64,000 bases of DNA, from contig CM049315.1 of the NCBI GenBank assembly GCA_026874595.1, positions 16,250,164 through 16,314,163 of the forward strand, in the 5' to 3' direction. This DNA comes from Sipunculus nudus. Lineage: Eukaryota > Annelida > Sipuncula > Golfingiida > Sipunculidae. The notes below the pieces were generated by a model. The model did no database searches and was not told where the DNA came from. It saw only the letters and a program-made list of their open reading frames with translations. The first letter of the stretch is position 1. Each line of letters opens with the position of its first letter. The translations under genes were made by a program, and so were the position numbers. Positions 10,514-61,922 of this stretch are shown one piece after another.

Positions 10514-13060
10514 TTAAGATAAGATAAGATAAGATAACATAACATTTATTAGCCTTCATTTCCAGGAATTTGTTGTTGACTTGCAATTCATTACATAAAA
10601 ATAGATAAGTAAATAGATAAATACATAAAAATAATACATAAACATACATTAAAAATAACACATAACAAATAAACTATGCATGTAAAAATAAGCATGTAAA
10701 AATGATAAAACAAATAATTCTGCAGGTAAAAACAAATAATTCAAAACATTAAATATCTAAAAGGGTAGTGAGTTAAAAAGTTTAATACTGTATGGTACGA
10801 GAGATTTTTTAAAATGAGTTGTTCTGGAGAATATTGTATCTAGGCGTTTACCTGAAGGTAAAAAACGGTACTCTGAATATAGGGGATGAGTTGTCATTCA
10901 TGACCTTTGTTTTGGTTTCACAGATTTCCTGGTGTGTGTCTAGAGAAGTACTAGTTATTTTACAACTTCTCTTCCTGGTATTATTTAACTGTTTCTTTAA
11001 CTTATCAGATATATTTGTAAACCAGCACTCCAGTGAATAAGTAAGGACACTGGAAATTACTGAATTATAAAACATGGTAATTATGGCTTTGTCAATATTT
11101 AGCTTTCTTAGATAATAAAGGTAATATAATCTTTTTTTTGCTTTCTTGGATTGATTCAACACATGTTCTTTCCAATTCAGATTCCTGTCAATAATACATC
11201 TTAAGTATTTATAATTTTCTACAATTTCTACATCTTCATTTTTGATAGCAACTGGGGTAATTACAGATTTTGATCTCCTAAAATCAAAGACTACTTCTTT
11301 AGTCTTCTTTACATTTAATTGAAGGTAGTGTTCCTTACACCAACCAGTCACATATTGAATGGATTTTCTGTAGAGCGATTCATCATTCTTGTGTATCAGG
11401 CCTAGAATGACAGTGTCGTCTGCATATTTGATAATTTTACAATTTGAAAGGCTCACAGACAAATTATTTGTATAAAGAATAAAAAGGACTGCTGACAGAA
11501 CACAGCCTTGTGGAGCACCAGTATTAATGATTATATCTGAAGAAGTTTCTTTGCTTGTTCTAACATGTTGTCTTCTATCTGAGAGAAAATCTAGAATCCA
11601 TAGACAGTAGGAAGGAGGAATGTTATACCTACAGAGCTGATTGATCATAATGTGTGGCTGTATTGTATTGAAGGCTGAAGAATAATCAATGAAAAGTGAT
11701 CTGGCATAATTTCTGGGGTCCCTGTCTAAGTGTTGAAAAATACAATGAGTTAATGTGGCAATTGCGTCGCTTGTGCACCTGTTGGATGAATATGCAAACT
11801 GATGTTGATCTATCATTGGTTTAACAATGGGAAGTAATTTGTTAAGAACTATTCGCTCCAAAGATTTTGCGAGAATAGATGTAAGTGCAACAGGAATTAT
11901 TTCTGCGGTCTTCCATAGTTTTGGTAGTTTACATAAGGAGAGAGACAACTGAAAAATGTGATGTATGATGAAGGACAAACTATTTCTACAGGTTAATCTG
12001 CCACTGATTTTGTCGGGTCTACAGGCTTTCTTTACATTAATCTTACTTAACACTTTGTTTACATCAGTTAGATCAGTAAGGATGATATCATCGCATGATT
12101 CTAAATTTGCTCTCAGACTGCTCTGAATTTCATCTTTTTCCTTTGAGAAGTCACTTTCATCAAAACGCGCATAAAATGTATTAAATTTGTCAGCATAGCC
12201 ATTTTCAGCAAGCAGTGAGCATTCTTTCTTGCTTTTAGTTATACCAGTTAATTCCTGAAGACCCTTCCAAGCATCTTTTGATTGCTGGCTATGGAACAGT
12301 TTTTCTACTTTCTTTTTATATTGTTGTTTGGCTTTCTCAATGGCAGAATCAGTTTTTTTTTGTAAGTCATATCTGTTATCTGAATTGCTTGTGAAGGCTT
12401 GGTGCTTACATACAATAAGTTTCCTTAGATCACTATTGATCCAAGGTTTATTATTAGGGTAAATCCTAATGGTTTTAGTAGGTACCAGCATGTCTTCACA
12501 AAATGGTATATAACTAGACACAGTTTCAGTAAGTTCATCTAAATCATATGAAGTGTCAATGAACATTTGCCAGTCTGTTAGATCAAAACATGTTTGTAGG
12601 GTCTCATAGGCGTCCTCTGAGTTCACTTTAATATTAATTTCACGTGGTTTCAGCATTTGAAGTTTACGTCTGTAAGTAGGTTGCATATAGATCATATTAT
12701 GGTCACTATATTTGAGTGGAGGACCTTGAACACATTTATAAGCAGATTTAATATTACAATAAAATAAGTCCAGTTTCTGGTGACCTCTTGTGTTACAGTT
12801 CACGTACTGCGTGTAGTTTGGTAGTGGTTGATCGAGATCACAGTGGTTCATAACTCCGAGTACAATGTGCAGAGCTTGTGGTTTCTTTTCTTCTAACTGG
12901 GCAACAATATCCTGTATCTTCTTTGATGCAATGTCTTTATCAGCACTGGGGGGAATGTAAACGACTGTGAGAGATATATTGGTAAATTCTCTAGGTAGGT
13001 ATGAAGGACGTAGGCTCACTGATAGGGCTTTATGACGCAGACGAATTGTTATTGTCAAAA
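10514..13060 (-). mobile_element. 5'-truncated LINE (L2/CR1-like) with long ORF
   Basis: A minus-strand insertion of about 2.5 kb. Its 3' end is a (TTATC)n-type tail at 10514-10546. The body is the open reading frame 10848-13058. The endonuclease N-terminus is absent, which fits 5' truncation on insertion. Unit B lacks it at the matching site, so it probably inserted after the duplication. Confidence 0.85.
10848..13058 (-). CDS. LINE ORF2-like protein: endonuclease remnant plus reverse transcriptase
   Basis: An uninterrupted 736-codon frame. Residues 1-130 are the C-terminal half of an AP-like endonuclease, with VVYIPP at 33-38 and SDH at 118-120. The expected GDFN reads GVMN at 68-71, which loses a catalytic Asp. 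The reverse transcriptase follows, with IDYSSAF at 457-463, APQGCVLS at 515-522 and the catalytic YADD at 545-548. The block between IIPV and ALTS (about residues 387-392) is shorter than in relatives, which usually have a PKK...YRP motif there. The chosen start is only the first in-frame Met; the true protein began further upstream. The clade (L2/CR1 superfamily) is inferred from the YIPP, APQGCVLS and FDFRRSK motifs. It is probably inactive but not old, since no stop has accumulated. Confidence 0.85.
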   Translation of the reverse strand: MTITIRLRHKALSVSLRPSYLPREFTNISLTVVYIPPSADKDIASKKIQDIVAQLEEKKPQALHIVLGVMNHCDLDQPLPNYTQYVNCNTRGHQKLDLFYCNIKSAYKCVQGPPLKYSDHNMIYMQPTYRRKLQMLKPREINIKVNSEDAYETLQTCFDLTDWQMFIDTSYDLDELTETVSSYIPFCEDMLVPTKTIRIYPNNKPWINSDLRKLIVCKHQAFTSNSDNRYDLQKKTDSAIEKAKQQYKKKVEKLFHSQQSKDAWKGLQELTGITKSKKECSLLAENGYADKFNTFYARFDESDFSKEKDEIQSSLRANLESCDDIILTDLTDVNKVLSKINVKKACRPDKISGRLTCRNSLSFIIHHIFQLSLSLCKLPKLWKTAEIIPVALTSILAKSLERIVLNKLLPIVKPMIDQHQFAYSSNRCTSDAIATLTHCIFQHLDRDPRNYARSLFIDYSSAFNTIQPHIMINQLCRYNIPPSYCLWILDFLSDRRQHVRTSKETSSDIIINTGAPQGCVLSAVLFILYTNNLSVSLSNCKIIKYADDTVILGLIHKNDESLYRKSIQYVTGWCKEHYLQLNVKKTKEVVFDFRRSKSVITPVAIKNEDVEIVENYKYLRCIIDRNLNWKEHVLNQSKKAKKRLYYLYYLRKLNIDKAIITMFYNSVISSVLTYSLECWFTNISDKLKKQLNNTRKRSCKITSTSLDTHQEICETKTKVMNDNSSPIFRVPFFTFR

Positions 13061-13074
13061 TTAATTAATTTTCA

Positions 13075-24100: not shown

Positions 24101-25500
24101 AATCAAAACTTAAAAGCTGACTAAATTTGATCAAATACATCATTCAGCAAAAGCCTCTTATTCAAGAACAAACCGTCAGTGTCTTTGAGCTGAACCCTGG
24201 CCGCTAGGCAAGATTTAAGAGTTTTGCTGGTAAAAACTACCCGCTTAATTCATAGAAGTTGCCACAAATAGAAATTCAACATAGCCTTGGTTCTCTTAAC
24301 TAGGTTTAAATGCTCATAAGGAGATATAAGAGTGACGGGGATATTTTATTTATGCAGAGTCACTGGAAAAACAGCGACGTTTGGACAGGGAACCACATTT
24401 CCAATTGAGAAGATAAGCAGGTCAACAAAAAACGGTATAGCGGTACTCATCACTAAAAGTGACGCTGATGGTATCAACACACTGACGCTGCCGTGCAAGA
24501 GAAAATATACACCACAATCCGATGAGTTCCTTACCATATACGGCTGGGGGTACAGCGGGGCGAGCGGAGACGCGACTCTGAACATCGCTGACCAGCGCTG
24601 GGGAGGGTCTGCCTGCAAAGACATCTTTCCAAAAGCTGACGGCAAAAACTACGTCTGCATGAAAGCTACAGCTGTTAAACAGAGCACATGTTATGGGGAC
24701 TGCGGGGGAGCTGTAGTCAAAAGTGGTACCCTGGTTGGTGTCGTTGTCGGTGTACCGCCCGACTGTCAACCCGGTAGATACACTCTTGTCGCCTCCATCA
24801 AAAGCGCCATGTTACAGCTGTTATCAGAAGATTTTGCTGGCTGTCACATGGGTCCATATAATGGTAAGGAATAATAGTAGGGGGGGGGGGGGGGGGGTGG
24901 CGGTCGCAGACCCAGAGGGGCGTAAAAAATAAAATAGATGTATCACTGATATTTTACTATGATTTCACTGAGATGTCCTTGTTTGATCATTCCATTTTTA
25001 TTCCTTTATTCTCATCCTTTATCAATGCACTGTAGCCGTTTAATAAATTAAAACTTTGTTCATCGTTAACATTAAAGCCCCTCAGTTTGATGCTGAGAAC
25101 AAACATCATTTGAACCCTCCACGCCGAAAATGTAGCCGCCCCTGTTAGTGGGCTCATGTTGACATATCTACGGGCTTAATATTTCTTCATCTCCTGCTTT
25201 TAATCGATAACACATACATTTTGAAATTTTAAAGTTTACTTTAAAAAATATTCTTAAGAAGAAAGAAACATGAAGAAGAAAGAAATCATAAAACGTCCAG
25301 CGATATGGATTAAAAACAGCATTTGGAATCATTTTAATTTATTTTTATACCTCCAGGTTCCAAAAAGGTTGGTCTTAGGCACTGCATGGTCCCTAGGACA
25401 TCTGTCATGTTTTACAGTTACCCGCTGTGGATCAGTTATGTCCAGAGATTAAGGAACAATTTGAATACTTACAGATATTGCACTCGCTGTAAAGAATATA

Positions 25501-25561
<61 letters not shown>

Positions 25562-28458
25562 ATATTGATATATCCTAACGTAATATTTGTTTTAATTGAT
25601 GCTATACTGTATTGTGTCATGTTTATTCTCTGTGTATCATCTTGACCTACACGCATCATCTTGACCTTACAGATACGAGCGTACTGGCTTCAGATAAAAC
25701 TACCACGGGGGCCAATCCGCTGACATTCCCGACGGTAAGCCACATCAGTTTTTTTTTCAGATGGGACTGTTCATAAGATTCTATTTAACTGTACAAAGTG
25801 TTCACACGGATACGGGTACGGATGCGTCAACATTCGTGAATTTGGATTTTCCACAATAATTTTCATGAAATGGCATATACATCGATTTTTGCTCTTCTAC
25901 TGGAAAATGTATCGGTAAAATGTTCATTAAATGTAAGATAAAAAGAAAAAGAGTTTTATACGTTTCCAAACAATAAAGATAAACAGGTTTCAAAGGTTAG
26001 GGTTACACTCCTTGAATGTTTGAGGTAATTTGAACCACCGTTATGTTCTCTTTTCATTCATAAACTTCTTTCCATCATGACACAGGGCGATTCTTGTTAT
26101 GTTTCAAGTAGAGATATTCTACAAGTCATTATCTGTATGAAGATATTTGAGGAACGGTAGATCTTTAGTTCCAATATCCTACATATGCTGAATTATGTAA
26201 TTCCTACAGTTTGGAACAGCGCTTGTGGTTCACGTTTGCCTCACATATATAGGCTTGGTCATTAAGTAACCAATTGATGTCAGAGATCAAAGTTCCGCGA
26301 CCAGCTTTTCGTGACATACCATGTGTAAAATAAAGACTACTACCTAAACCAACTTCCGAAATTCAAGCGACAGACTGCACTTTGTTTCTGCTATTTACTG
26401 CGCGGAGCCATCCATGAAATACCATTCGTACTACACCATCCATGATATGTACCATCCATGCTATACCATCCATACTATATACCATCCATGCTATACCATC
26501 CATGCTATACCATCCATGCTATATACGATTCATGCTATATACGATCCATGCTGTACCATCCATGCTATGTACCACCCATGCCATATACCATCCATGCTAT
26601 ATACGATTCATGCTATATACCATCCATGCTATATACCATCCATGCTCTACCATCCATACTATATACCATCCATGCTATATACCACCCATGCTATACCATC
26701 CATGATATGTACCACCCATGCATGCTATGTACCATCCATGCTATATACCATCCATGCTATATACCATCCATGCTATATACCGTTCATGCTATATACCATC
26801 CATGCTATATACCATCCATGCTATATACCATCCATGCTATATACCATCCATGCTATATACCATCTATGCTATATACCATCCATGCTATATACCATCCATG
26901 CTCTACCATCCATGCTATATACCATCCATGCTATACCATCCATGCTATATACCATTCATGCTATATACCATTCATGCTATATACCAACCATGCTATATAC
27001 GATCCATGCTATACGATACCATCCATGCTATATACCATCCATGCTATACCATCCATGCTATATACCATTCATGCTATATACCATTCATGCTATATACCAA
27101 CCATGCTATATACGATCCATGCTATACGATACCATCCATGCTATATACCATCCATGCTATACCATCCATGCTATATACCATTCATGCTATATACCATCCA
27201 TGCTATATACCATCCATGCTATATACGATTCATGCTATATACCATCCATGCTATATACCATCCATGCTATATACCATCCATGCTCTACCATCCATGCTCT
27301 ACCATTCATGCTATATACCAACCATGCTATATACGATTCATGCTATATACCATCCATACTATACCATCCATGCTACATACCATCCATGCTACACCATCCA
27401 TGCTATATACCATCCATGCTCTACCATTCATGCTATATACCAGCCATGCTATATACGATTCATGCTATATACCATCCATGCTCTACCATTCATGCTATAT
27501 ACCATCCATGCTCTACCATTCATGCTATATACCAACCATGCTCTACCATTCATGCTTTATACCAACCATGCTATATACGATTCATGCTATATACCATCCA
27601 TGCTATACCATTCAGGCTATATACCATCCATGCTCTACCATTCATGCTATATACCAACCATGCTATATACGATTCATGCTATATACCATCCTAGCTCTAC
27701 CATTCATGCTATATACCATCCATGCTATACCATTCATGCTATATACCATCCATGCTATACCATCCATGCTATATACCATCCATGCTATATACCATCCATG
27801 CTATATACCATCCATGCTATACAGCCCCTAATCATTAACACCACGAACTATTTCCCTCAAGTTAAATGATTTAATTAATTTGCACATATGCATATCGGCT
27901 TTTTCGGACGAGTAGATTGATACACACGGGAAACCAGCAAAACCAAGAACTTATATTAGAAGATAAAGTAAAACCGGCTGAACAAAAAGTGAAGAATTAT
28001 GTAGGTAGCCCTTCCACTGATGAGTTGATACGTAATGCATTTTACACAGGTGAAATAAGTAGATCTGACGGTGGGTCCAGTTTATTCAGAGTAACGTTAA
28101 AATGGTAAGCGGTGAAAGGTTGTAAAAAGAATCCGACAACTTACACTGCCACCCAAAGCTGAACAACCGGGTTATGATATGAGGGACACTGCTACCTCTC
28201 ACACTTTTTTTTATTGTTTTTTAGGGGTCTTGTAAAACAAAAATGTGTGTGAAGTGGGAGCCAGATCCTATGGACGCGGCCTGCAACAAAACCACCAATG
28301 GAGACCCAGCACGCATGTGTACTGACATAGCTGTGCAAAAAGAGGGCTTCCAGTTCACAAAAAGACTGGGGAAATGTTCAGCAAGGAACATGAAGAAACT
28401 TGACTGCCCTTGCTGTGACCAGTACACGCTCACATGGGATTGTTACAAATGTGATTAA
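18090..28458 (+). CDS. Secreted triad-less S1 peptidase homologue with Cys-rich tail (gene copy 1, five exons)
   Basis: Joining 18090-18183, 21370-21526, 24358-24863, 25673-25734 and 28225-28458 gives a 350-residue frame. All introns are GT-AG and the phases fit (1, 2, 1, 0). Residues 1-20 form a signal peptide, followed by RQKR at 22-25 and IVGG at 29-32. The trypsin fold runs to about 246: GAFISPR before VTCAAC (Ala73 at the His57 position), NGIAVL (Gly110 at Asp102), GWG at 146-148, GDCGG at 197-201 (Cys199 at Ser195) and PGRYTLVAS at 222-230. Residues 250-273 are a Thr/Ser/Pro-rich linker, and 274-350 a domain with ten cysteines. Protease activity is not expected; binding, inhibition or a structural role are possible. 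The S1-fold assignment is firm; the role is unknown. It has TATA and CCAAT boxes and a poly-A signal. Confidence 0.85.
18643..19221. mobile_element. TIR element rich in TCGCAA/TTGCGA words (intron 1, unit A only)
   Basis: The ends are inverted over about 28 bp, with GTATCT, TGGGCTG and GACAG conserved at both ends. The inside is packed with degenerate TCGC/GCGA and GTCTC words and has no transposase. Copy 2 has an empty site at about 50305, where GGCCGGAAAATGCTAGCCG runs straight through. This shows insertion in A after the duplication, or precise loss in B. No clean target duplication could be read. Confidence 0.65.
21370..21526 (+). CDS. Copy 1 exon 2: N-terminal half of the S1-like domain
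   Basis: Acceptor TTGTTAG, donor GTAAGT. With the G from exon 1 it completes IVGG and then encodes VQLPAGYMSNALVY and CTGAFISPRVIVTCAACVVG. In active S1 enzymes this last block is C-GG-LI----VLTAAHC. Here the His is Ala and an extra Cys sits two residues before it. The reading frame in the same place is intact in copy 2. Confidence 0.9.
21600..22892 (+). repeat. 43-bp minisatellite, about 30 copies (intron 2, copy 1)
   Basis: The unit reads from CTGTCTTATTAACGGGTCGT to TAGTAGCGGCTAT. Units vary by single bases (ACGG(G/A)TCGT, TAG(T/C)AGC). It begins about 75 bp after the exon 2 donor. The right end joins LINE sequence at TGTTGAGCGA. The matching site of copy 2 holds about five units. Confidence 0.9.
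22893..23034 (-). mobile_element. LINE reverse transcriptase fragment (copy A, part 1)
   Basis: Matches 57418-57542 in unit B, where it encodes the GVRQGDPLS region. The minisatellite replaces everything downstream of this point in the element. It continues at 23763 beyond an insertion. The LINE was in intron 2 before the duplication. Confidence 0.75.
23035..23762. mobile_element. Insertion within the LINE, with GGTGGCGCCACC words
   Basis: Absent from the same place in unit B (57543-57590). It starts near a (CCG)n stretch and carries GGTGGCGCCACCTGCA at about 23318 and 23413, with a weaker copy near 23566. Similar palindromes mark the 340-bp repeats at 46934-49177, so the two may be related. 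Overlapping small reading frames look spurious. Ends and target duplication were not resolved. Confidence 0.5.
23763..23950 (-). mobile_element. LINE reverse transcriptase fragment (copy A, part 2)
   Basis: Matches 57590-57770 of unit B, the FDKINRDLTLYRLLELNIDG region. It has accumulated frameshifts. Together with 22893-23034 it is the remnant of one element. Confidence 0.75.
24358..24863 (+). CDS. Copy 1 exon 3: C-terminal half of the S1-like domain
   Basis: Acceptor TTTATGCAG, donor GTAAGG. It encodes VTGKTATFGQGTTFPIEK, then NGIAVLITKSD where active enzymes have NDIAL, then IYGWGYSG, STCYGDCGGAVV and QPGRYTLVAS. The residue at the S1-pocket position 189 is Ser, not Asp. Cys170/Cys184 and Cys195/Cys220 match the usual S1 disulfides 168-182 and 191-220. 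The equivalent exon in copy 2 is frameshifted and cut short. Confidence 0.9.
24880..24897 (+). repeat. G18 run just after the exon 3 donor
   Basis: Eighteen G residues starting 16 bp into intron 3. The equivalent run in copy 2 (58588-58607) marks the right edge of an exon deletion. Confidence 0.8.
25503..25558. repeat. (AT)n microsatellite, intron 3 of copy 1
   Basis: About 55 bp of uninterrupted alternating A and T. Confidence 0.9.
25673..25734 (+). CDS. Copy 1 exon 4: Thr/Ser/Pro-rich linker
   Basis: Acceptor CCTTACAG, donor GTAAGC. It completes an Asp codon and encodes TSVLASDKTTTGANPLTFPT, rich in potential O-glycosylation sites. It joins the S1-like domain to the C-terminal Cys-rich domain. 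It is conserved in copy 2 at 61108-61169. Confidence 0.8.
26408..27823 (+). repeat. 14/16-bp tandem array (intron 4, copy 1), about 90 units
   Basis: Alternating CATCCATGCTATATAC (16 bp) and CATCCATGCTATAC or CATCCATGCTCTAC (14 bp) units with base variants. All three forward frames stay open for long stretches because the unit lacks stops, giving His-Pro-Cys-Tyr-Ile repeats. These are artefacts. Copy 2 holds only about 150 bp of related degenerate sequence at 63745-63895. Confidence 0.9.
28225..28458 (+). CDS. Copy 1 exon 5: C-terminal 10-cysteine domain
   Basis: Acceptor TTTTTTAG, phase 0, encoding 77 residues and TAA. The cysteines are at 276, 281 and eight further positions, ending DCPCC then WDCYKCD. 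Several N-linked glycosylation sequons are possible, for example NKT. I do not recognise the family. An even number of cysteines in a secreted protein suggests five disulfides. No matching exon is found in unit B. Confidence 0.8.
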   Translation, partial: GSCKTKMCVKWEPDPMDAACNKTTNGDPARMCTDIAVQKEGFQFTKRLGKCSARNMKKLDCPCCDQYTLTWDCYKCD

Positions 28459-35897: not shown

Positions 35898-36556
35898 ATT
35901 ACAGGTGCCTCTTGTTATTGTGTGCAGCGGTCTTACAGATGATTGTTTTATTGTGCACACGAATATTTCATGTGTTGTTGGCGTTTGGTTTTTGTGTGCC
36001 ACGCGTAGCTCGTGTTGTGGCGGCCTTCCCTGGCCGGATGTTGCAGGCTCGGTTTAATCCGCATTGGTTAAACCCTAGATACACAGCGTTCTTTGTTCTG
36101 GTATGTTCTTTGAACGTGTGTACTTAGTTAGATTCTTTAGATTGTTCGAGAAATAGAAGCTTCTCGGGTGGAGGTGATAAGTTATAAATAGGGGGCTGTG
36201 TTTTAGAGCCGAATGAGAGGTGAGAGAATATTCCAGCGGACACAGAAGTGTGTAAGTCAGTCTGTGGGACCTATTCCGATAAGTGCTACAATTATTGATT
36301 TTCTTAAGTTTTTCTTCGGGATTTTGTGACGAATTTTATTTTATTACTTTCTGGATTGTTACAAGAGCTTTACATTGGACTGTTATTCTCCGAGAGAATT
36401 TGTGTGAACTTTTCATCCGGCTTATACATTTTAAAGGACTTATCGCTGTGGCAGTGGTGGATTCCAGGTACTGTGCACTTTGTTTATTTTACTGTGTGAT
36501 TGTATTGATTTGTTGTTGTACCGCTGTTATACTGTGTAATTGTATTGACTTAGTAC
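35898..36556 (+). mobile_element. LTR-like repeat, + copy (3' truncated)
   Basis: About 650 bp homologous to the inverse of 39380-40020. It has TATAAATA at 36183-36190. The 5' end reads ATTACAGGTGCC where the mate has TGTTACAGGTGCC. Similarity stops at 36556, exactly where homology with unit A begins. The last ~70 bp of the LTR is therefore missing. No internal coding region is adjacent. Confidence 0.6.
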
Positions 36557-39310: not shown

Positions 39311-40020
39311 TGTTAACAAATAACCATAATTTATTCTTAAAACAACCCTTACATTACAATACACTAAATCAATACAATTACACAGTATAACAGCAGTGTA
39401 ACAGCAAATCAATAAAATCACACAGTAAATAAAACATTGTGCACATTACCTGGATACCACCACTGTCACAGCGACAAGTTCTTTAAAATGTGTAAGCCGG
39501 ACGATCAGTTCACACAAATTTTCTCGGAGAATAACAGTCCAATGTAAAGCTCTTGTAACAATTCAGTAAGTAAACTGAACTCCAAATAAGATTCGTGACA
39601 AATCCAGAAGAAAATCTGAAGAAAATCTATAATTGCCGCATTTATCGGAATAGGTCCCACAAACTGACATACACGCTTCTGTGTCCGCTGGAATATTCTC
39701 TCAACTATCTCTCGGCTTTAAAACACAGTCTCTTTATATAAATATTCACCTTAAGCCGAGAATTTTCCATTTCTCGAACATTCCAAAGAATTAACACAGT
39801 ACACACATTCAAAGAACATACCAGAAAAGAACGCTGTGTATCTAGTGTTCAACCAATGCGGATTAAACCGAGCCTGCAACATCCGGCCATGGAAGGCCGC
39901 CACAACACGAGCTGCGCGTGGCACACAAACCAAATGCCAACAACACATGGAACATCCGTGTGCACAATAAAACAATCATCTGTAAGACCGCTGCAAACAA
40001 TAAATGGGGCACCTGTAACA
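39311..40020 (-). mobile_element. LTR-like repeat, inverted copy (710 bp)
   Basis: Read on the minus strand it begins TGTTACAGGTGCC and ends TTTGTTAACA, so it has TGTTA...TAACA termini typical of LTRs. It includes a TATATAAA box. It is the inverse of 35898-36556 with about 85-90 percent identity by eye. Flanking 5-bp duplications could not be matched, and no gag or pol frame lies beside it. A solo LTR or a remnant of a rearranged element is likely. Confidence 0.6.
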
Positions 40021-56039: not shown

Positions 56040-57770
56040 AGGCATTTGTGAATGAATTAATGAGTTTATTTATTATAGTGTTATGTACAATAATACAGGG
56101 AGAAATACAATAAGTGTCTGCTTATAGTACCCAACCCTCGCAGGGATTTATATGACACTCAGTACTCTAGTTTATAATGGTAGTACAGGCGTATAAACAA
56201 TCCTTTCTAATCTCACATGCTTTTGCTACAAAGTCACTGATTTCGTTAACACAGTTTTGAAGCAGATATATAAATTGACTTTTAGGAGATAATCATGAGA
56301 ACTCTGTTTTATTAGGAATACATTTGTATGATTCCTCTCTCATTTCATCATATTTTGGACATAAGCATATAAAATGAATTTCGTCTTCAACTGAATTGTC
56401 CTTACATATTGTGCATATTCTTTCCTGTGGTTTTAATTTTCTAAATTTATCTGTGATTGCATCTCGAATATTTTTGAACCTCCAAACTTGAATTTCTAAC
56501 GGTAAAATTCCCCACCAAAACTGTGCCATTAAGGATCTCTTTTCTCGCGGTAATTAATGAATGACATAAGGTTCGGTACAGTAAATGATTTGAATACTGC
56601 ATATGTTCATAGTTTTGGCTTTAATTTCATTTCTTCTAGCCACAAAAGGTTCATAGAATTCTTGTAGTTTTTTGCCAATAGTTTCATCAGGACAAGCAAA
56701 CCGCTGAGCAACAACGTGTTACATTCGCTATGTCTAGCATTTCCTCTACTTTAGCTGACCAGTTGTTATATCGTAACTCCCGGTCCCAGTTGCATATTTG
56801 CTTTGCAAGCCTTTCTTCGTCCATTAATATGAGATTATTTCAAAATTTCAGTATTAACATCTGGCGCCCTTCTTAACTGGAAACCCAACCCATGTCCCCA
56901 GTTAAACCTATAACGGGGCATAATTTATGAACTCCTAGAAAATACCTTATAGCCTTTGTGAACAGTCGAGGATTTACAGTGACCACAAACCTCACAAGCA
57001 TAACAAGCCCTGGTACTATGGCACTGTAATAAAGTTAAGTAAAAGAGTAATAGGAAGCATTTTTTAAATATTTGATTTTTCAAATTATATTCCCAAGTGC
57101 TCTTGAACTAGCGTCAGCTAAACGTCACTTCCGGTTTTATAATCCATATGATAGACAAAATCCTAAATATTTATACTCCTTGACAGCTTTTAAATTCGAC
57201 CCATTTAAATTAAATTTGGACCGAGTAAGCGATTTTTTGCGATCATGGAAATGAATAACGTCACTTTTAATTGGATTCGGATGTATTTGTCATAGCTTAC
57301 ACCACGAGTCTAAGTACGAGAGCATACACTGTAGGGCACTGGCAGTCGGTGCCACTAGAGCAGTGTCATCAGGGCACAATAGTATACATATTTTAGTAAT
57401 GCCCCAAGTAATCCCCATGTTGAGCGAATTGATAAATCGTACCAACTCATTCAGATATATATTCAATAATGTAGATGACAAAGGATCACCCTGACGTACA
57501 CCAAAGCTTACTGTCAATTCATCAGTGAGCAGATCTGGAGTAATTCTAACCTGTACTTTGTTATTATTATACATAGATTTCAATACATAATATAGTTTAC
57601 CATCAATATTTAGCTCTAGCAATCGGTAAAGGGTGAGATCCCTATTTATTTTGTCAAAGGCCTTCCCAAGTCGATTAGGGCTACAAATACCGCTTTGCCC
57701 ATATTTATGTAATTGGTCACAATGCTTATAAGAGTAAAAATGTGTTCGAAACATTTTATTTGCCATCTTT
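56040..57770 (-). mobile_element. LINE remnant: RT to 3' end (unit B)
   Basis: Minus strand. 57766-57290 encodes AFDKINRDLTLYRLLELNI, GVRQGDPLSS and, where YADD is expected, CPDD. Then come IRYFLGVHKLCPVIGLTGDM (about 56880-56940) and RLAKQICNWDRELRYNNW (about 56770). The C-terminal ERICTICKDNSVEDEIHFIC lies in 56529-56293. The 3' end is a (ATTC)n-like tail near 56040. Several frameshifts and stops break it. The same element in unit A survives only as 22893-23034 and 23763-23950. The start of the RT and the endonuclease are missing. Confidence 0.8.
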
Positions 57771-58197
57771 GGATTCGGCGGCGCAATACAAAATAAAAAG
57801 TTAAAATACTATTTTTTTTCTCAAATGAGGAAATCGGAGGTTGGAGCGGGTTCGTAAACCAAAAAATTAAAATAGTCTAACCTGACTGGGGCTTCTTGTC
57901 CTGTGGCGCACCAAAACTCAAAGACTGACTAAATTTAACTAATTACATCATTCAGCAAAAGACTCAAATTAAAGTACAAACTGTAAATGACAAACTGTAG
58001 GATCTAAATACAAATGCAAATACAAATACGCCTTTTACCTAAAACCTGGCCGCTAGTAGAATATTGCTGTCAAAAACTACCATCGTTATTTTTAGAAGTT
58101 GCCAAAAATAGAAATTCTACAAAGCTTAGGTTCTCTTAACTAAGTTTAAATGCTCATAAGGAGATATTAGACTGACGGGGATATTTTATTTATGCAG

Positions 58198-58561
58198 AGT
58201 CACTGGAAAAACAGCGACGTTTGGACAGGGAACCACATTTCCAATTAAGAGGATAAGCAGGTCAACAAAAACGGTATAGCGGTACTCATCACTAAAAGTG
58301 ACGCTGATGGTGTCAACACACTGACGCTGCCGTGCATGAGAAAATATACACCACAATCCGATGAGTTCCTCATGCACCATATACGGCTGGGGGTACAGCG
58401 GGGCGAGGGGAGAGGCGACTCTGAACATCGCTGACCAGCGCTGGGGAGGGTCTGCCTGCAAAGACATCTTTCCAAAAGCTGACGGCAAAAAATACGTTTG
58501 CATGAAAGCTACAGCTATTAAACAGAGCACATGTTTTGGGGACTGCGGGGGAGCTGTAGTC
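58198..58561 (+). pseudogene. Copy 2 exon 3, frameshifted and 3' truncated
   Basis: See the copy 2 entry. After the second shift the frame again reads IYGWGYSGARGEATL and STCFGDCGGAVV. It then runs into repeat sequence. Confidence 0.85.
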
Positions 58562-58587
58562 GATAACAGGTGTGTGTGTGGTGGCGA

Positions 58588-58607
58588 GGGGGGGGGGGGG
58601 GGGGGGG
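58588..58607 (+). repeat. G20 run at the exon 3 deletion point
   Basis: Twenty G residues, preceded by (GT)n. Corresponds to the G18 run in copy 1, which lies beyond the donor. Confidence 0.8.
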
Positions 58608-58639
58608 CGCAAAGAAGCCGCAAAATTCCAATATAAGTT

Positions 58640-60930
58640 CCACTGAGATTTGAGGGATTTTCACTGAGTTTGAAATCAAAGAGCAAACTGTCTGTTCAAT
58701 GTTAGATTAATTGAATATTTCAAGAATAAGACTTTCACCCTTCGTTGGAATATGAAAAAAAAAAACACCACGTTTGACGCATTGGCACCAACCGTATATA
58801 TTCTCTATCATAATTTAGAAAACCAGTGCTCTAAAACCTTCAAATCCTCGCTGTACTCACACTGCGGCTTTAGGACGATGATTCTCTTGATGTTACAATC
58901 GTGATATTGACGTATGTGGGCGATAACGGGAAGCTGACGGTCATCCTCGAGAGGAAATAGACGGAAAGGCCGAATCGAGTCAACTGTATTCTTGATATGA
59001 TGTATAAAAGGAACTGATGAATCCTCTCATGTGTATAACCTTATAATCATAATTGTTGAATTCTGGTGATAAAATCTGAGAGCCCAGTTTTGGACTTCGT
59101 CAGTATGCCGGCTTGAATGACTGACCGCCACCGCGATGCCGTGCATGGTCCGTTACCTGACGAGTCAGTCCCCGTGGCATGTAGATAAGTATGTGGATGA
59201 ATAACTCATTAAAATATATTCACTCGGAGTTTGTCATTTCTCATCATCTATATGTTCTCTTTTAAATAATAATAAAAAAAGAATACATATTTTGTTCGTA
59301 TGCCTGCTGGATTGACCGCCTGTTACTGCTATGTCGTGTAAGCTTCGTCACATGATGATGTCAATACCCGTGGCATTTAGGTACGTATGCGAAAGTATCA
59401 CTCAAATTATATAAATTCCTTTCTGTTTGTTATTTCTCATCAGTGTTATGTTAATGTTAAGTAATGTTAATAATACAACAACCTCTAGGTGATAAAAAGA
59501 GGAGTGAAGTCTGTTGAATCAAACACGAAAATTACCTGTGGGTTTGGATTTCACAGCAGGGCAGATTTGGGGTCGCTATTACGACAGCACGGTTAGGTCA
59601 AGGGTCAGTACGCTCTTTACACAGCGCTTTACCTATAGGCCTACAACCTATATCGTAAGCGCTGTTTGTTTTGACCTCGTATCTTGAATCGCTACACCAG
59701 AGGGGAGCACTATATTTTGGTCCAATCAGATGAGACCCTGTGCTGGAAGACAAAACGGTTTACCAGGCAAGCGAGGAATATACGGAGCCAATGTTGTTCA
59801 TTTAGTTTTGAGTGACAGCTCATCGCCCCGGCAATCGTTTGAACAGGCCACATGCTCAGAGAGAATGGCCGCACACGTGGTTTCTGGGCGGAGCCTGATG
59901 CCTGTCGAGTGTTTGGTGACTGTCATTTGGTTGGCTGCTAGTCACATCAGCAGGTTTTCTTTCAGCAGACAGGCCCACTACCTGGTGTTTAAGTGCAAAT
60001 CAGTAGCTTCTTTAGAAGCGCACGATTTCTGCTGCACCGGGAGCGTAAAGGGTCAGAACTTAACCGGGCCTCTCAAATCAACCAGCAATGGATTTCAACA
60101 CGGCTTTCTATGTATACAGTATTCAGTTTAATTTGAACTGAAATTGAAATATAAAACGAACATTAAGCCACGACTCCGGCTAGGATATATTGTCCTATAA
60201 GAATACACAAATCGTATGGGATCATATGTTAAATCGAATGGCAACAATCCCTGGGACAACGGTCTCAAAACCGCATGTGAGAACAGAGTTAACGCGCTTT
60301 AATAGATATAAAATGCATGTTTCCCTGAAGAAATGAGTGGTTTCTTCCTCTCTAAATGAGGATTCAATTCCCAGAGTCCGTGTCTTACGGCAATAGCTTC
60401 GAATTTAGTATAAAAAGTACTGAGTTGAGGTCGTTCTAAATCCCCCTGAAAGTTTTCATTTCCCGTTAGGGCTCATTATCTACAAACATATATGCACGGA
60501 AGTCGGCAATATTCGTAGGGAGTATCGTTTAATGTCTTAGGTTATGCAAATGAGTTGACATGAACCCTCGGGAGGAAACGTAGCGCCACTTTGTGTCTGT
60601 CTCAGAGACTATATTAAATCTCGTCTCTCCAGCCAATGGCATGCCGCGTCGTGGACACCGGGGTCACCAAGTCATATGTTTTGTTACCTAAATTAGCGAT
60701 AAGCGCAGATCTCAAATAAAACAATTGGCGGTACATTTCACACAAAAGTTAAACGAAAATTTTGCAGAAACATGTGGGATAAGGTGCATCAATGCTGCAG
60801 GTTTGTTGACTGTACCTTAAATTAGTTATTGCGTTATTGCGTTTACAAATGATCGTCGGACGGATGGACGGACGGAAAGACGGACGGACGCTCACGATTT
60901 CTATGTCCCCCGCCGACGGCAAAAAGTCCA
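58640..60930. other. Insertion-rich intron 3 of copy 2
   Basis: No counterpart in copy 1 intron 3. Contains the 9-bp-duplication element (59609-60047) and a GGACGGACGG tract near 60855. No gene recognised. Confidence 0.4.
59609..60047 (+). mobile_element. MULE/Merlin-like non-autonomous element, copy 2 (439 bp)
   Basis: Perfect TACGCTC/GAGCGTA ends and a perfect 9-bp duplication AAGGGTCAG (59600-59608 and 60048-60056). Homologous to 31698-32403 in inverse orientation, with the internal part reduced. A subterminal hairpin is at 59622-59664. No transposase. Confidence 0.8.
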
Positions 60931-61406: not shown

Positions 61407-61412
<6 letters not shown>

Positions 61413-61509
61413 TATAAATAGAAGGTAGTGTTACCCTCCGATGTAAAGTGCTCTATGGCCTACAAGCTAGGCCAGAGCGGTATAACTCTGAAGAAAAACA
61501 ACACTGTTA

Positions 61510-61557
61510 ATTCACAACAGACTGTTTCACGGGGTGCGACCCGATCATCAGGTGAAT
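61510..61557 (-). ncRNA. Hammerhead ribozyme motif, minus strand
   Basis: On the minus strand: stem I ATTCAC/GTGAAT, core CTGATGA, stem II CGGG/CCCG with a six-base loop, core GAAA, stem III ACA/TGT with loop GTC, and triplet GTT before stem I. All invariant core bases are present. It is the mirror of the plus-strand motif. Confidence 0.75.
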
Positions 61558-61588
61558 GTGGTTAGAATCTTCTAACAGTTCTAACCAC

Positions 61589-61636
61589 ATTCACCTGATG
61601 ATCGGGTCGCATCCCGTGAAACAGTCTGTTGTGAAT
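61589..61636 (+). ncRNA. Hammerhead ribozyme motif, plus strand
   Basis: Stem I ATTCAC (61589-61594) pairs with GTGAAT (61631-61636). CTGATGA is at 61595-61601. Stem II CGGG (61603-61606) pairs with CCCG (61613-61616). GAAA is at 61618-61621. Stem III ACA (61621-61623) pairs with TGT (61627-61629). Predicted cleavage follows U61630 (GUU triplet). This is a type I layout with a minimal stem III, as in retroelement-borne hammerheads. Activity is inferred. Confidence 0.8.
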
Positions 61637-61664
61637 TAACAGTGTTGTTTTTCTTCAGAGTTAA

Positions 61665-61720
<56 letters not shown>

Positions 61721-61756
61721 CTAAATTCTAAGGGTGCTTGCTTAAGACAGTCAATG

Positions 61757-61786
61757 AACATGTACAGATGTCAATCTGTACATGTT
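61757..61786. other. Perfect 13-bp hairpin
   Basis: AACATGTACAGAT and ATCTGTACATGTT around a 4-nt loop. An outer pair, GTCAATGAACAT and ATGTTCATTGAC (to about 61852), frames it. TA tracts flank both sides, as for the ribozyme palindrome. Confidence 0.6.
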
Positions 61787-61848
61787 ATCCAAATAATATG
61801 ATTATTTGAAATGTTGGCGTTGATGTCTCTCTTCTTTTTATGTTCATT

Positions 61849-61922
<74 letters not shown>

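Follow-up and report, generated by a model that had tools for sequence, protein, structure and literature searches.

The palindrome at positions 61483–61663 of the window, the 64,000-nt stretch of Sipunculus nudus DNA that was analysed, most probably represents a minimal insert of a Penelope-like retroelement (PLE; probability roughly 0.8). We consider it equally probable that each insert of this kind consists of two cDNAs of the 5′ end of a PLE RNA, placed head to head. About 175 such inserts were found in the 1.43 Gb host genome. In these tiny inserts the start and the end of each cDNA, and the point where the two meet, can be read to the single base, so models of PLE integration became separable by counting. 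Two models were available, self-priming, proposed from rotifers (PMC3846280), and two-strand extension in vitro (PMC11167929). As a ribozyme pair the window insert is ordinary, and as a record of PLE integration it is unusual. Its hammerhead palindrome is explained without a new ribozyme function.

Structure of the insert

The whole insert comprised 244 bp (61420–61663) and was flanked by an 11-bp target-site duplication, AATATATAAAT, at 61409–61419 on the left, with an identical copy at 61664–61674 on the right. Inside the left duplication lay a 63-nt tail (61420–61482, sense on the minus strand), beginning with AGAAGGTAG on the plus strand and probably derived from the RNA-3′ end of the longer cDNA. 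It ran outward from the palindrome to AGAAGG, ending at the target duplication, and its sequence was also present in the leader of the parent unit L214. The palindrome was formed by arms of 85 nt, identical at 84 positions (99% complementary), around an 11-nt centre; they differed only at position 34 from the tip. The left arm (61483–61567, sense on the minus strand) is read as the first cDNA copy of the element's 5′ RNA end, with its parent in L214, and the right arm (61579–61663, sense on the plus strand) as the second copy, which has no tail. The start of the right arm, TAACTCTG, recurred with point variants in the other inserts whose sequences were compared. The tip (61568–61578) is putatively the filled junction of the two cDNA 3′ ends; its TTCTAACA is the neighbouring TTCTAACC repeated with one base different. 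One hammerhead-like motif was located in each arm, at 61510–61557 on the minus strand (predicted cut between 61516 and 61515) and at 61589–61636 on the plus strand (predicted cut between 61630 and 61631). Nothing was found to indicate a function for the window copy itself.

Several other features were observed in the window. An imperfect inverted repeat, GTCAATGAACATGTACAG .. CTGTACATGTT .. TGTTCATTGAC, adjoined the insert at 61750–61851, between (TA)n runs. Positions 35899–36554 and 39363–40018 formed an inverted pair of about 660 bp with 87% identity, and a long tandem array with three open frames (YTIHAIYHPC-like repeats) occupied 26348–27869. Reverse transcriptase (RT) fragments of other elements were present at 10848–13064 and 57290–57808 (RVT_1, E 2.7e-27 and 9.9e-11). 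A trypsin-like exon (PF00089) was noted for 24320–24874 and 58186–58695. The antisense frames of these two places have ELIGLWCIFS.ARQRQCVDTISVTFSDEYRYTVF in common, and a second copy therefore seems to lie near 58 kb.

Family of inserts in the genome

When the genome was searched with the palindrome, 1181 first-look candidates came up; the best 40 were scored (the window and 39 others), a set biased toward the window copy. A pattern search with exact 17-mers from both outer arms and a free gap between them yielded 11, 13, 27, 54 and 71 matches for gaps of 0–30, 31–61, 62–92, 93–120 and 121–142, respectively. The sum of 176 counts pattern matches and not distinct loci, with at least one locus (C5:25123372) present in two gap classes and mismatched copies missed. 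The same arrangement, for which the preliminary description had suggested a genome search, was recovered elsewhere in the genome. An assembly artefact, which it had named as a possible refutation, is unlikely, as the 176 matches have differing centres. On C4, three inserts that hardly differ in sequence and are spaced by about 2.1 kb (C4:75910109, 75912264 and 75914385) probably arose by later tandem duplication. An intermediate form was seen in L169:582-2099, a relative of 1.5 kb whose inverted ends measure about 245 nt; upstream of its RNA start lay a minisatellite with a unit of about 85 nt and long runs of C.

All 39 other inserts showed ..AGCGGTA on one side and AT-rich sequence, mostly (TA)n, on the opposite side. 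Plain (TA)n surrounded 28 of the 40 inserts, where a target duplication is unreadable. Among the 12 inserts outside plain (TA)n, six had a duplication of 10–11 bp (the window, L133, L145, L157, L158 and L161), one showed 5 bp and L140 was mis-parsed. The simple test for a target duplication detected none in the other four of the 12, three of which have AGAAT before AGAAGG. In L162, the first 13 nt of the tail were duplicated, the outcome expected if copying began twice there. AT-rich targets, a short target duplication (10–11 bp, readable in 6/40) and an optional tail, which are features of PLE inserts, were thus present in this family.

As another origin of this family we considered a DNA transposon of the MITE or foldback type, mobile as a palindrome and bearing a hammerhead-like motif by chance; near-perfect inverted repeats, many copies and TA-rich targets would agree with it. 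A plain MITE was rejected once the flanks revealed the one-sided 63-nt tail, which makes the ends asymmetric where symmetric terminal inverted repeats define a MITE. With a readable duplication of 10–11 bp, tips and arm lengths that differ among copies and a retroelement as parent, this origin was judged the most improbable of those weighed.

Parent element

At many sites in the genome the tail continued into ACTCCAGCTCC, often in tandem with a spacing of 2.92–2.95 kb. Arrays of up to seven units occurred among the matches listed, for example at C12:49442345-49459871 with at least seven units, and the period in L214 was 2920. Tandem units with a pLTR, as in PLEs, were therefore present. The unit in L214 held a 685-aa stop-to-stop ORF in which ..LYRDDGL.. 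(a YRDD box) and ..VYKATVRTDNDVKHYIGCTEGDFKTRYNNHKQSF.. were read by eye. The same ORF contained IVYKA..HYIG..FKTRYNNH..TELSKHIW, likewise found by eye, which resembles the GIY-YIG consensus. Downstream of the ORF, L214 showed the block of start, hammerhead, +86 site and tail, followed by the next unit. CTGATGA was present once in the L214 unit, within a hammerhead motif identical to that of the window and in direct orientation. The position of a hammerhead in the pLTR, another PLE feature, was thus established for L214 by sequence identity only.

Profile searches for the telomerase-like RT in a single ORF and the GIY-YIG endonuclease that are expected of a PLE added little. Pfam produced no RT match on the whole 685-aa ORF, and RVT_1 scored E 0.0041, below the cut-off, on a cut-out piece. 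No GIY-YIG match to this ORF was obtained in Pfam and none was so named in PHROGs, a search that returned nothing useful. A genome search with PF01541 (GIY-YIG) gave 12 matches, none identified as a PLE; by eye, 10 of the 12 were UvrC-like and lay on high-numbered contigs. Contigs C61, C62, C64–C66, C69, C72, C75 and C89 (L203–L212) carried such UvrC-like GIY-YIG matches, with long open frames and near-identical copies on several of them; these contigs are perhaps bacterial, from a symbiont or a contaminant.

The assignment of the parent as a Penelope-like element consequently draws on motifs read by eye and on architecture. The link to PLEs that the preliminary description had envisaged held in that the hammerhead-like motif recurs, directly oriented and once in L214, in a tandem element of 2.92 kb whose ORF shows RT and GIY-YIG-like motifs; of the GIY-YIG domain that it had linked to such an element, a similar motif was read by eye and no Pfam match was obtained. 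Some of the sites lay head to head, with C1:55957064 and 55959988 on the minus strand and 55961038 and 55963962 on the plus strand. This is the geometry of the inserts at a larger scale.

One tail and two cDNA starts

Exactly one tail was found in 69 of 70 inserts, a count that includes a manual entry for the tail of the window insert. No tail was found in one insert (L191), and no insert had tails on both sides. The inserts thus had two fixed starts: one cDNA included the 63-nt tail, and the other began at the site without it. The alleles of the two arms agreed within inserts. At arm position 26, both arms had the same allele in 62/63 inserts (shuffles: mean 46.1, maximum 55), and at arm position 39 in 49/51 (mean 36.0, maximum 45); two more positions, with 50/51 and 40/40, were too uniform to inform. 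Both arms were therefore copied from one source. Differences from the common arm were symmetric in seven cases and one-armed in 10, among 39 inserts with L140 left out, as its 37 one-arm differences are artefacts of mis-parsing.

In self-priming, the first cDNA would fold back at its 3′ end and be copied into the second arm. This snap-back was inferred for rotifer Penelope from head-to-head repeats and palindromic junctions, as described in PMC3846280. It would yield near-perfect arms, the matching arm alleles fit it as well, and a short palindrome is contained in the window tip. A self-primed arm should, however, copy the tail. The second arm ended before the tail (one tail in 69/70, two tails in none), which disfavours self-priming. 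Asymmetric inserts also carried sequence in one arm that was absent from the other, and such unequal arms cannot come from arm-on-arm copying unless deletions came after. Self-priming was on balance considered unlikely, and the evidence favours two-strand target-primed reverse transcription over it. Counted against the two-strand reading were the parent's GIY-YIG-like motif, which Pfam did not recognise, and its RVT_1 score below the cut-off.

Junctions and the RNA start

The tips of the 40 scored inserts were of 22 distinct kinds, the commonest occurring 14 times. The cDNA ends were variable, often at the putative RNA 5′ end, and microhomology or filler marked the joins. Tips of the 40 symmetric inserts lay mostly within a few bases of GGTTAGAAT, the complement of the RNA end AUUCUAACC. 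The parent sequence at this position in L214 is TTCATTCTAACC, which presumably fits an initiator with A as +1. On these sequence grounds, the common cDNA end looks like an RNA start. The first filler base after the RNA-5′ end was C in 16/26 ends from 13 inserts (p 9e-5 against 0.25), a count in which the two ends of one filler are not independent and four ends have a G for which the sequence upstream served as template. Extra bases get added opposite a cap. The resemblance of the C-first fillers to such additions is suggestive only.

The 27 matches with gaps of 62–92 were mostly asymmetric. Their arms ended at least 10 positions apart in 21/27, with either side being the longer, and were nearly equal in 4/27. 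Only one arm held the whole motif in about 18 of these 27 inserts. An origin of all asymmetric inserts by later deletion near an unstable centre, with symmetric palindromes as the sole primary product, has to be weighed here. Long palindromes are unstable, and 71 of the 176 matches fell in the largest gap class, mostly symmetric among the matches listed (80 letters). Against this, the longer arm passed the common RNA start in 9/27 inserts with gaps of 62–92 compared with 2/40 symmetric ones (L137 and L164), a difference that is only suggestive since the two sets were gathered differently. Fillers at many junctions also speak against it. As a general account, later deletion thus appears improbable, to about the same degree as self-priming; some asymmetric inserts could nevertheless be later deletions within a symmetric palindrome.

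Hammerhead-like motif

The presence of a facing hammerhead-like motif on each strand within a near-perfect palindrome, on which the preliminary description was based, was confirmed with arms of 84/85 identity and 31 nt between the motifs (plus strand 61589–61636, minus strand 61557–61510). The motif reads ATTCAC-CTGATGA-U-CGGG-UCGCAU-CCCG-U-GAA-ACA-GUC-UGU-U-GUGAAU. The claimed stems I, II and III of 6, 4 and 3 bp were as stated; the preliminary description does not mention the U.U on which helix II stands, nor that H17 is U. Both arms have the type I core (CUGANGA / GAA / NUH) and its three stems. Positions 10.1 and 11.1 at the base of helix II, which should pair in type I, are U.U and form no pair, and this was the case in all 26 distinct arm sequences. 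A hammerhead descriptor was satisfied only with U.U allowed. Since each arm is the reverse complement of the other, finding the motif twice counts as a single observation. The chance of the full 6/4/3 descriptor with U.U allowed was about 5e-4 per window (0/200 shuffles). Given this value and the position of the motif in a PLE-like leader, a chance motif was rejected as the full explanation.

Covariance models gave a divided result. With the Rfam hammerhead models, no match was obtained at the gathering score, nor up to E 10, a weak negative in that the gathering control detected only one of five loci with canonical viral hammerheads. Rfam matches below gathering scores were to microRNA and other long-hairpin or AT-rich families. 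Model R2, built from 25 viral hammerheads, scored 19.7 bits for each arm (61587–61638 on plus, 61559–61508 on minus), with E 8.8e-06 when 561 nt were searched with filters off. In a filtered R2 search of 80.8 kb from five sources, the plus arm was found at E 0.0013, and the minus arm and the identical motif of L214 were absent from the results. The exact 17-mer had one match in viral contigs, on an unrelated GC-rich contig, and a search of a plasmid collection gave none. Of short words from cephalopod repeats, a single 10-mer was found, twice.

The predicted minimum-energy folds of the single arms (−19.0 and −18.4 kcal/mol) were not hammerheads; the hammerhead form was predicted at −6.8 and −6.2 kcal/mol. 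Compared with shuffles, the arm folds were not markedly more stable (z −1.1 and −0.8). For the whole palindrome, a hairpin of −158.6 kcal/mol was predicted, compared with −6.8 kcal/mol for one arm as a hammerhead. These predicted energies agree with the earlier suggestion of a ribozyme masked by the long hairpin in a transcript over both arms.

A functional inverted pair would have each strand's transcript cut unless the hairpin masks the ribozyme. Core positions were mostly kept in the 26 distinct arm sequences, most copies being alike, and helix II also begins with a U.U in the weakly active axolotl family HHR_Amex2, for which 22% cleavage of a single-repeat transcript after an hour is given (PMC7229834). 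The arrangement is, however, accounted for by the insertion mechanism, the 40 symmetric inserts read through the cut site, and the predicted hairpin is far more stable than a ribozyme fold that is itself not the best predicted fold of a single arm. Such a function was considered very unlikely. The evidence does not support the self-antagonising inverted pair that had been envisaged as a deliberate arrangement; the pair results incidentally when one RNA end is copied two times, and about 18 of the 27 inserts of the 62–92 class have a single full-motif arm.

Both arms passed the cut site in the 40 symmetric inserts, and their templates were therefore uncut there. A search pattern for palindromes with tips at the cut site requires both arms up to the cut, so its three matches had to end at that site or past it: the ends of L172 and L174 are at P33 to P35, and L173 is ambiguous between P33 and P44. 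P33, the predicted cut, was the most frequent unambiguous cDNA end with 5/58, compared with one to three elsewhere, in a count of 51 inserts with gaps of 0–92 (the 125 matches with gaps of 93–142 excluded) and ends over 38 positions. This excess is weak and does not decide for ribozyme-cut templates.

Proposed mechanism

The element RNA, presumably capped, would begin at AUUCUAACC, with the hammerhead-like motif inside its first 60 nt. Cleavage of the two strands of an AT-rich target by the element protein would leave a stagger of 11 bp. Synthesis of cDNA would be primed by one target end at about +149 of the RNA, the end of the tail, and by the other at about +86. Both cDNAs would run on one RNA source to the 5′ end or stop sooner, and their two 3′ ends would be united by end joining. 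The product would be a head-to-head inverted repeat with a single tail and a variable tip, and hence a hammerhead-like motif on each strand.

The one-tail rule suggests an ordered use of two sites on one RNA, and together with the matching alleles it points to one RNA source for both DNA strands; a single RNA molecule may have served both. The wider proposal is that PLEs insert by an ordered two-strand reaction on one RNA, with the distal start (and so the tail) always used at one target end and the proximal start, without the tail, always at the other. The cDNAs would extend to the capped, uncleaved 5′ end and be end-joined, and leader-only inserts would form a distinct non-autonomous class that is rebuilt at every insertion. 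We regard the odds of this generalisation as even. In such an ordered reaction, two copies of the protein on one RNA would behave as though each had its own start site and its own DNA strand. A literature search of titles and abstract beginnings yielded no description of leader-only head-to-head PLE inserts.

Comparison with known systems

Animal non-LTR retrozymes have a type I hammerhead in small repeats, as described in PMC7229834, and this is shared by the inserts; the axolotl family HHR_Amex2 also shares the U.U. The same account gives retrozymes as direct tandem repeats of 170–400 nt that lead to circles, whereas the arms here are inverted and the parent is PLE-like. A retrozyme was rejected for the inverted arms and a parent unit of 2.92 kb with an ORF. 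PLE hammerheads are described as usually minimal, without helix III and tertiary contacts (PMC6155905).

The rotifer elements Pen1–Pen6 are reported in PMC3846280 with inverted head-to-head pLTRs and palindromic junctions, as found here. In Pen2a, the inverted pLTR is shorter than the direct one, again as here, and the target duplications of 8–10 bp, where present, resemble those of the inserts (PMC3846280). The rotifer inserts are mostly element-sized and self-priming is favoured by the authors of that report, whereas the short leader inserts of S. nudus disfavour it.

A close likeness was seen to the Poseidon PLE of Anolis carolinensis (PAc, PMC11167929), which also has tandem units, a pLTR and, near its 5′ part, a hammerhead. 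The two systems further share AT-rich targets, the extension of both strands and RT start sites that lie internally and determine an optional tail. With purified Poseidon protein, the two strands of AT-rich DNA were both cut and extended, starting internally at two sites that define the tail; PAc carries a hammerhead, mainly unprocessed RNA is used, and hammerhead cleavage was not required for insertion in vitro (PMC11167929). The systems differ in the tail, with 63 nt here and 30–40 bp in PAc, and in the position of the hammerhead, which is located in the leader here with the ORF after the tail, whereas the PAc ORF begins at stem II (PMC11167929). No strand difference in the start site was seen for PAc in vitro, in contrast to the one-tail rule, which counts against an ordered reaction (PMC11167929). 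In S. nudus, each of the tiny inserts carries two copies of the RNA end and a single tail. By analogy, these inserts are the leftovers to be expected from a PAc-like reaction if both cDNAs were short and their ends were joined.
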